A model generated the notes under the pieces. That model was given only the letters and a program-made list of their open reading frames with translations, was not told where the DNA came from and ran no database searches. The translations under genes and the position numbers were made by a program. From Branchiostoma floridae (lineage: Eukaryota > Chordata > Leptocardii > Amphioxiformes > Branchiostomatidae), in contig NC_049983.1 of the NCBI RefSeq assembly GCF_000003815.2, forward strand, positions 2,900,350-2,964,349: a stretch of DNA of 64,000 bases. The letters are read 5' to 3'. This document shows, piece after piece, positions 48,001 to 51,000 of this stretch (positions within the stretch are counted from its first letter, which is position 1; each line of letters opens with the position of its first letter).

Positions 48001-51000
48001 TAAAAATTATGTAGAATGAATGATGTCAAAATATTTTTCTGTAGTTTCATATTGAACGTGCCTGTAAGAAGTATGCATTGAAATATTTGTAAAACAGGAA
48101 GCTAAATCTCTTAAATGAGACCTTATGAGAAAATGTTTTTTTCAAGATGGTTGCTGAAGTCTGATCTGTATACCTTTGGGATAAAGAGAAAACTGAAATG
48201 TCATGGTGTGGAAAAGCATGAAACTACGTTAGTCATGGAAAATTAATCATGAATAGAACTGAGGGGAAATTGATGTAGCTTAACTTTTCCACAAGTAGTG
48301 TATAGTGGCCTGAGTGAATGTTGTTAGTTCCAAGTCATGGGCTGGCCTTGATCATCATCGTGCAACATAATGTAACTGTAACAGCTTCACTTGCATTGTA
48401 GCTGAAAATGTGCACCAAATGAATTAAAAGCAGGTCAAAGATTGTAATATTTGCTAAAAAAATCATATTTCTTGACCTTTACCCTTTAAGGAGCACTAAG
48501 CTCCAGAAGGTGGTGTTGTTTTCCCATAAATGATGTATCACATGTACCTACAGATTACTTGTATGTCAACTTTTTGCAGTAAAATCTACTGAATTATTGC
48601 ATTACTGTGCACTACTGTGGTATGTGCAAAGACTACATGTAAAAATTTGGTACTAGTCGACAATTTATCAATGACCTACAATGTATACTGTGTACATTAA
48701 CTAAAATTATCTACTTGAAGATAACACCGGCCCCCTCTGGAGTTTATCGCTGCTTTAAAGCCCTCTACAAAACTGAACAAAACTGTCGCATATTCCAGGG
48801 CGTGGCTTACAGCTGATTCAGAAGAAGAAGACGATCTACCCAGAATGGAACAGCTGCTTCGACTCTCACCTGTACCAGGGGCGGGTCATCCAGCTGGCCG
48901 TCATGGCCAAACCCATGAACAAACTGCTGGCCGAGGTGTCCATAGGGGTGCAGATGCTGGCCGAGAAATGTCAGAAAGGGGACGATAAAATCATCAGCAC
49001 ATGGGTAGGAAATCTTCCTTTGTACATGTTTTTACTAGAGCTACATGTGTACCTAAATAAATCCAGGATACAGGTATACAGTAGGTACATGGCTTTAGAT
49101 ACAAGTCCGGACCTGAACGAACTTACACAAATTTGATCAATAATCTCTATGTTAAAAATATAGCCAACTAACTTTTGTATTGATAGATTGTCATCTTTGA
49201 ATGAAAAATTACATATTTGAGCCTCAAAACAAACTTTCCTTGTTAATTTTCAACTGCAAGATTATCACAGAATAGACATGCTCTGAGTCACAGCTCACTC
49301 TTTACTTTGAAATTCTCAGAAGTCACGTTACAAACCCTCAGGACATTCACTAATAGTACTTACTTACATCATTCGCCGTCCAATAACAGAGTACAATTCA
49401 CAAGGTCAAATATAAGGAACAAGTTATCATGGTAGCAAGGCATTTCAAAACACATCTGGCATTGGCAAAAAAGAAAATAATAGACTTAGATTTCACACTC
49501 TAATGATTACTTTCTGAAAACTGATTTCATAGACCCTTGGGGTATGTCTTTCTGTTACTTAAGATATAAGACCACATTTCTTAAGACCTGTGCACATTAC
49601 ATAAGACCACATATTGTCAATACAGCTATATACCTTTCTGTTGTGTCCTTGTAACACATTGCTGTACAGTTATGTACTGTACAATGTATATTAAACATGA
49701 CTTTCCCTGTTCTAGCTGGACTTGAAACCTTCTGGTCGGCTGTTGGTACAAGTTCGATACTTCTCAGAGGAAGGCCAGTTGCTATAGGTCTTCTGAAAGT
49801 CGCTGTACTTTTTGTCATGCTAATAAAGATTTCTGTTGTTTTCCTGTTCTAGCTGGACCTGAAGCCCTCTGGCCGGCTGTTAGTTCAAGTCCGATACTTC
49901 TCAGAGGAAGGCCAGGGCGCGGCCCGCGGTACCCCGGAAGAGGAGGAACAGTACGGAGCGTTCACGCGGCGCCGCATGGCCATGCGCAAGGCCAAGGTCC
50001 ACGTCATCAAGGGTCACGAGTTCATTGCCAAGTTCTTCCCAAGTCCAACCTACTGCTCCGTGTGTAAGGAGTTCTTGTGGTGAGCTTCAGATTTCAGTAC
50101 AGTAACTATAATTACTTTAAGTTTGTAGATTTCTCAAAATAAGTTCATTTTAGATATTTGGAGATTTTTAGCCTGGATACCAGACCCTCAAACTCAATAA
50201 TGTCCTCCATGTTTATCAGGGTTTAACTCAGGGGGCTGTTATGGATAATTAAACAAAACTTTAAGTTACAAAAACAACATGTACTAACACTAAAATTGAT
50301 TGGGACTTGTCCCAAATTTTCGGCCAACGTTCACAAAATGGTCCCGTCTACTGTAGCTTCCGGAACGCGACAACGGGGACACGTAACTGCAGCAGAGGGG
50401 CATAAATGCCAGATAACAACCTGTGTCGCTCCCCGTCTCTGTTCAGTGATGTTCAGGGGGCTGTTGTTGAATTTGTTTAAAGGGATGTTGGCCCTAGAGC
50501 CAAGAAGTTTGCCTGTGTAGGCCCAGGAAACAGTGTGGTATCCAGGCTTGGATATTTTAGTGGTATTGAATTGGTATTGCAAGGAATTTGCATTTAAATT
50601 TCACAGGGAAGTTGAATATAGCTGAATGTAATTGTCTGACATTTTCTGATTTGAATATGCAGACTTGACCTTTCAGGGCTCAAAATACTGGGTGCATGTG
50701 CACCCAGGTGCACCCAAAATTGGAGATGTGCACCCAATTTTTTTCTGTGGGTGCACAGGGTGCACCCAAATATTTTCTTAGGTTTATGTATGTAAAGATA
50801 TCAAAGTATACTAGACCAAGTATACATCTGATTATTTACATCATATTCTTGCCATTTAAGTGTTAGAAAGATAATACAAATGTCCGTCATTGTACTTGAT
50901 TAAGAATTTGATACCTTTTAACTAAGTTTTATTATTAATAGGTTATTACTTAAATTTAAGTGGTGCACACCCAATTTTTTAATCTGGGTGCACCAGTGCA

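Follow-up and report, generated by a model that had tools for sequence, protein, structure and literature searches.

The window analysed here, a stretch of 64,000 nt from the lancelet Branchiostoma floridae, carries a protein kinase C (PKC) gene, the first three coding exons of which are listed in Table 1 together with the features discussed below. Pfam profile search of the gene product gave PKC_C2 and C1_1 matches, with the C1 domain entered within exon 3, and the kinase-like exons downstream of the C1 portion were read from the list of open reading frames. The three best PDB sequence matches of the C2 domain are C2 chains of PKC delta and PKC theta (one is labelled merely protein kinase C); judged by these matches, the gene is a novel PKC of the delta/theta type.

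Table 1. Features of the PKC gene around exon 3 (window coordinates)
Feature	Position	Strand	Remarks
Coding exon 1 of the PKC delta/theta-type gene (MSVLALGG...VDTPG)	44898..45039	+	Spliced translation; donor CAG/GTAAAT
Exon 2, bulk of the C2 domain	48799..49004	+	Spliced translation and donor scoring; donor TGG/GTAGGA weak (score 1.0)
Upstream acceptor copy, TTTCCCTGTTCTAG	49702..49715	+	13/14 nt same as the exon 3 acceptor
Upstream copy of the first 63 nt of exon 3 (21 codons); upstream duplication arm	49716..49778	+	
3' end of a 5'-truncated retrotransposon-like repeat, sense orientation	49779..49833	+	2-nt AG overlap with the copy (49777-49778) at the 5' junction
In-frame TAG stop after Leu-Leu, within the element	49785..49787	+	
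CTAAT, match to yUnAy, within the element	49820..49824	+	A49823 to last base of the exon 3 AG, 29 nt
AATAAA, 3' end of the element family	49822..49827	+	Overlaps the CTAAT branch-point match
Downstream acceptor copy, required by exon 3 for the full kinase	49839..49852	+	
Exon 3 (C2 end, linker, C1A start)	49853..50079	+	First 63 nt = downstream duplication arm

The start of exon 3 is present twice. A single pair of 77-nt repeats (49702-49778 versus 49839-49915) is 90% identical at a spacing of 137, and each unit consists of a 14-nt splice acceptor (pyrimidine tract plus AG) followed by 63 nt of exon 3; at this length and identity, chance is ruled out as the explanation of the repeat. The exonic parts of the two arms differ at 7 of 63 positions, six of them third positions and one a first position (TTG/CTG). 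All seven differences are synonymous, so that 21 of 21 residues are identical, and the NG86 estimates for copy against exon 3 are 0.62 for dS and 0 for dN. In the upstream arm the AG and the pyrimidine tract are intact and the copied frame has no early stop, running on through Leu-Leu into the stop codon, with AATAAA behind it. On all of these points, namely a 63-base copy of the exon 3 start with its own acceptor about 137 bp upstream, seven synonymous differences, and a Leu-Leu-stop ending followed by AATAAA, the original prediction is borne out by the alignment.

The spacer between the two arms belongs to a dispersed repeat family. Positions 49690-49950 were used as a query against the animal's own genome (513 Mb, 431 contigs), and 40 of 50 candidates were scored; beyond the window itself, at least 39 further partial matches were obtained, with 82 to 92% identity and on many contigs. 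Among the matches listed, 30 of 39 start at query positions 87 to 90 and all 39 end at query positions 143 to 155, which places them within 49776-49844, that is, in the spacer. Alignment with flanks was carried out for 27 of the 39, and every one of these 27 other copies shares a single 3' end, AAGATTT, after which the sequences diverge from each other. Three loci (L003, L004, and L023) are the exception to this divergence; because their flanks are shared, they are not independent. In the 20 of the 27 copies with long flanks (about 7 kb upstream taken from each), the family similarity reaches 58 to 549 bp upstream, a reach that is a lower bound set by the sample, and the 5' ends are ragged. 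Such a common 3' end combined with ragged 5' ends is the signature of 5'-truncated retrotransposon copies. Among five longer copies that were read, some retain a piece of a C-terminal reading frame, and L029 has an intact C..C...H....C pattern; the one C-terminal frame that was scanned, from L044, had no Pfam match and the family's reverse transcriptase was not found, and for this reason the class of the element is left at "non-LTR-like".

Of the 27 other aligned copies, 23 have an intact AATAAA, which belongs to the family's own 3' end; the spacer contributes both the stop and the AATAAA of the short exon. The window element differs from the family majority at 8 of 54 aligned positions (14.8%), compared with 0 to 9.3% for the 27 others. 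It has nine differing columns when one insertion is counted, but only at 49793 and 49821 is its base common to none of the 27 copies, and two to four of the changes look private. When the window was searched with a 457-bp family query, no other convincing relative was seen (second match, E of 0.29). The element tail was also considered as a conserved RNA hairpin, a candidate that was set aside (z of –1.45 for two relatives with the same tail sequence versus +1.16 for the window copy). The flanks of L003 and L004 are identical over the 480 bases compared and that of L023 is alike; all three are on one contig (C8), where about 1 Mb separates two of the loci, and a segmental or assembly duplication is possible there.

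The 77-nt arms adjoin the element on both sides, with 0 bp at the 5' side (where the 2-nt AG overlap lies) and 5 bp at the 3' side. This layout of arms and element is seen directly in the sequence, and the junctions point to the mechanism: the exon copy is very probably an unusually long (77-bp) target-site duplication around the retrotransposon-like tail, a judgement that covers the origin by insertion and duplication and not the function of the product. A 55-bp 5'-truncated element tail would have entered exon 3 in the sense orientation, 63 bp from the exon's first base, and the accompanying 77-bp target-site duplication would have copied the first part of the exon along with its splice acceptor. 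Since the acceptor lay within the duplicated stretch, a complete exon 3 would have been rebuilt by the downstream arm, the full kinase could still have been made, and the gene would have survived. The upstream arm would have been left as an acceptor-bearing exon with no good donor, completing the C2 domain and then stopping within the element. The odd length of the duplication may reflect survivorship, in that an insertion inside a coding exon persists only if the acceptor is copied too. The original prediction had treated the copy as a plain exon duplication and overlooked the transposable-element nature of the spacer; with a repeat-family tail in the spacer and arms that adjoin it, target-site duplication is the best reading and that part of the prediction is not supported.

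Several features match LINE insertion by target-primed reverse transcription, including the common 3' end, the ragged 5' ends, the short 5'-truncated insert, the 2-nt overlap at the 5' junction, and direct repeats that abut both ends of the element. According to the portion of PMC4245944 available to us, target-site duplications longer than 20 bp form a class of their own, and truncated inserts have been described with overlaps at their 5' junctions. The same source places the length peaks for the L1, L2, CR1, and RTE clades at 3 to 15 bp, so the 77 bp found here is far beyond them, and the duplicated target here, unlike that of a usual LINE insertion, is a splice acceptor with coding exon. 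None of the 20 other long-flank copies, when tested for flanking repeats at its inferred 5' end, exceeded the shuffled 95% level, and two equalled it; duplications of 3 to 5 bp would be missed by this test. A scan of the flanks of all 27 loci flagged one 7-nt match (L027); L010 and L013 had better-scoring matches, but these lie off the junction.

Plain tandem duplication of the exon, perhaps of a former mutually exclusive pair with a donor lost later, would account for two nearly identical arms that are both in phase 0; however, it does not predict that the spacer is the tail of a repeat family ending at the family's own end. No similarity to the spacer was seen in the 60 bp of intron that precede the upstream copy (151 of 500 shuffles were as good in global and 229 in local alignment), nor in a 42-bp intron stretch (107 and 133 of 500). 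For a 100-bp stretch, 32 and 21 of 500 shuffles were as good, the match being T-rich and overlapping a 25-nt repeat pair, and it was not taken as homology. In simulations, so low an intron score arose in at most 1% of trials at d up to 0.3 and in 3 to 12% at d of 0.5. The absent intron similarity, together with the simulation, argues against a recent plain tandem duplication, whereas an old event (d of 0.7 to 1.0, less easily 0.5) could mask such similarity. As for a mutually exclusive pair, the copy has no good donor of its own, since the GT at its end (CCA/GTTGCT) scores –7.1. Taken together, we regard tandem duplication as very unlikely. An assembly artefact, in which two haplotypes of one exon were set in tandem, might be suspected in lancelets, which are highly polymorphic, and further tandem repeats are present in this gene. 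Alleles, however, would match in the intron above both copies, where no match was seen; a dS of 0.62 far exceeds usual allelic divergence, and a repeat-family tail stands between the copies, so that an artefact is more improbable still. Origin of the copy from a paralogue or from a second haplotype was also considered and rejected, as a DNA search of the genome matched exon 3 only here and at the upstream copy.

The target-site duplication would leave two acceptors. The pyrimidine fraction is 0.78 in the upstream acceptor, and the exon 3 acceptor is richer, at 0.83. A donor scan of 49716-49852, scored with a weight matrix, found 12 GT sites. The highest score, 0.43, belongs to the GT at 49735, which falls within the copied exon; the eight sites from 49778 on score –5.3 or less, versus 1.0 to 6.2 for the gene's own scored donors, and after the copied exon part no GT is above –5.2 or above the window's median donor score. 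The GT at 49735 is not far under the weak donor of exon 2 and counts against use of the copy as a last exon. Splicing from the CCA/GTTGCT site directly to exon 4 would be in frame, yet was rejected on its donor score. The branch-point consensus is yUnAy. Because the downstream acceptor keeps just 14 nt of the old intron, the branch point of exon 3 must lie in the element or further upstream. One candidate on which splicing at the surviving acceptor may rely is the element-supplied CTAAT, in which T49821 is common to none of the 27 other copies and C49820 to 2 of 27.

With no good donor after the copy, use of the upstream acceptor would most simply lead either to cleavage near the AATAAA or to an exon of 364 nt. 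In the first case a free C2 domain of 139 residues would be made; in the second, the long exon would carry its stop 292 nt before the next junction, and decay of the transcript would be expected. AATAAA occurs 58 times on the forward strand of the window, or about 5% per 60 nt by chance. A downstream polyadenylation element is expected beyond the usual cleavage distance from the AATAAA. The T-rich tract at 49828-49852 (56% T) starts directly after the hexamer, before or at the expected cleavage, and is badly placed as a downstream element because it precedes that distance; the following segment, 49853-49892, has 25% T and seven GT/TG dinucleotides and speaks neither for nor against such an element. 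The pairing of AATAAA with a T/GT-rich tract as a poly(A) site, proposed earlier, thus stands as to the hexamer, but the tract comes too early and the hexamer overlaps the branch-point match, so the case for polyadenylation here is weak. These features also fit unproductive splicing, in which the upstream acceptor is sometimes used, transcription continues, and the 364-nt form of exon 3 becomes a target of nonsense-mediated decay that lowers kinase output. The position of the stop, the lack of a good donor after the copy, and the ill-placed T-rich tract agree with this; it needs no conserved protein sequence, yet all 21 residues are kept, and we consider it unlikely.

The product itself is as originally predicted. 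Splicing of 44898-45039, 48799-49004, and 49716-49787 translates into 139 residues, and coverage of the Pfam PKC_C2 profile rises from 98/109 with exons 1 and 2 to the full 109/109 with the copy (E of 5e-39). In the PDB, the isolated PKC delta C2 chains 1yrk and 1bdy have their last residue where YFSE aligns. Alignment with 1yrk shows the same lysines, histidine, and arginine in QKK...FD.H.Y.GR, and these residues are taken to be the pocket that holds phosphotyrosine. With the basic and histidine positions kept, the free C2 domain could compete with the kinase for docking partners. Phosphotyrosine peptides are ligands of the PKC delta and theta C2 domains, and for theta such binding is key to release from the autoinhibited state, as stated in the portion of PMC3507883 available to us. 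The predicted product resembles these domains in the full profile and in the retained basic and histidine positions and differs from them in being a free domain with neither C1 nor kinase domains.

The synonymous-only divergence of the copy can be weighed against the inserted element. If all differences are placed on the copy, the probability that all are synonymous is 0.0001 to 0.0009 (about 0.0001 to 0.001); allowing equal change on the constrained exon 3 gives 0.002 to 0.013. The element was then used as an independent clock, run with 2, 3, 4, 6, and 8 changes, and the joint probability for a neutral copy was 0.001 to 0.02 over all settings. With eight changes, 7.4 nonsynonymous differences are expected (joint P of 0.002); with two, 2.5 are expected (joint P of 0.02, the element clock alone giving 0.17). 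Thus, no nonsynonymous change is seen in the copy versus 2.5 to 7.4 expected under neutrality. The original prediction had taken synonymous-only divergence to imply selection; the low neutral probabilities agree, but it ignored the constraint on exon 3 itself, which weakens the figure. Support is further reduced because the case was chosen for its synonymous-only pattern and the seven changes were picked after they had been seen. We therefore regard the support for protein constraint on the copy as moderate, suggestive rather than proof. Clustering of the differences was tried and set aside, since all seven fall in the first 13 codons (P of 0.015 by codons) but the longest identical run within the 77-nt repeat has a P of 0.37.

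The same figures bear on whether the upstream arm is an inert relic that has no effect, exon 3 being spliced from the downstream arm and the synonymous-only pattern being luck. Part of the changes would then sit on the side of the constrained exon 3. The probabilities with a constrained branch, which reach the upper joint value with a young clock and 0.17 on the clock alone, leave room for such a relic, as do the choice of the case for the very pattern tested and the richer pyrimidine tract of the exon 3 acceptor; the shortfall of nonsynonymous changes, the intact AG and pyrimidine tract, and the copied frame free of early stops speak against it. On balance, an inert relic is possible, with real doubts attached. 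Of the possible fates of the upstream copy, the one we favor, though it falls short of probable, is use as a minor alternative last exon with some constraint on its protein. This retains the central proposal of the original prediction, to which the acceptor, the want of a good donor after the copy, the completed C2 domain, and the synonymous-only differences are all favorable; its plain-duplication origin is replaced, and its polyadenylation signal is weak. The fullest reading is a self-healed insertion, in which the exon was restored, the element became the branch point of exon 3, and the upstream arm was selected as a competing, phosphotyrosine-binding free C2 domain; as a whole we put this forward tentatively, as rather doubtful.

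As a last exon, the copy would resemble the skipped terminal exons of intronic polyadenylation covered in the available portion of PMC5928244, being a small new exon with an acceptor, no good donor, and an AATAAA, whose product retains the N-terminal domain and loses the remainder. It differs from them in that its body copies the start of the next exon, its stop and AATAAA come from an inserted element, and it is a prediction from sequence. Natural truncated splice forms of mammalian PKC delta, such as delta III and delta IX, which appear in titles in the reference list of PMC8885814, are likewise altered or shortened proteins from a gene of this type; unlike here, nothing there ties them to an inserted element. 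A literature search found no report of a lancelet exon of this kind in titles or abstract openings, which is no proof of absence, and the available portion of PMC5802833, which deals with opsin genes of lancelets and their transposable elements, yielded nothing on this PKC gene. The locus would offer a concrete route by which one insertion disrupts a coding exon, mends it through its own target-site duplication, and leaves a second, terminal exon; the synonymous-only copy is testable against a built-in clock, and the short product, if expressed, would be a natural, competing form of a novel PKC, with the element serving to date its origin.

Other repeats were noted in the window. At 57966-58793, the last 59 to 64 nt of a kinase-domain exon are repeated nine further times in tandem downstream, and the donor CAG/GTAGGG is present in most of these copies; the second donor of the array, if used, would add VGKEIIV and an in-frame stop. 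The same PKC gene thus has a second partial-exon duplication, there at the 3' end of the exon. Introns of the gene share a GTGCACCCA-rich repeat at three places (45333-45393, 50731-50993, and 54273-54440), the last of these being assigned by a similar reading frame alone. A 121-bp tandem repeat at 26484-27945 forms two arrays of 2.4 and 8.1 copies.
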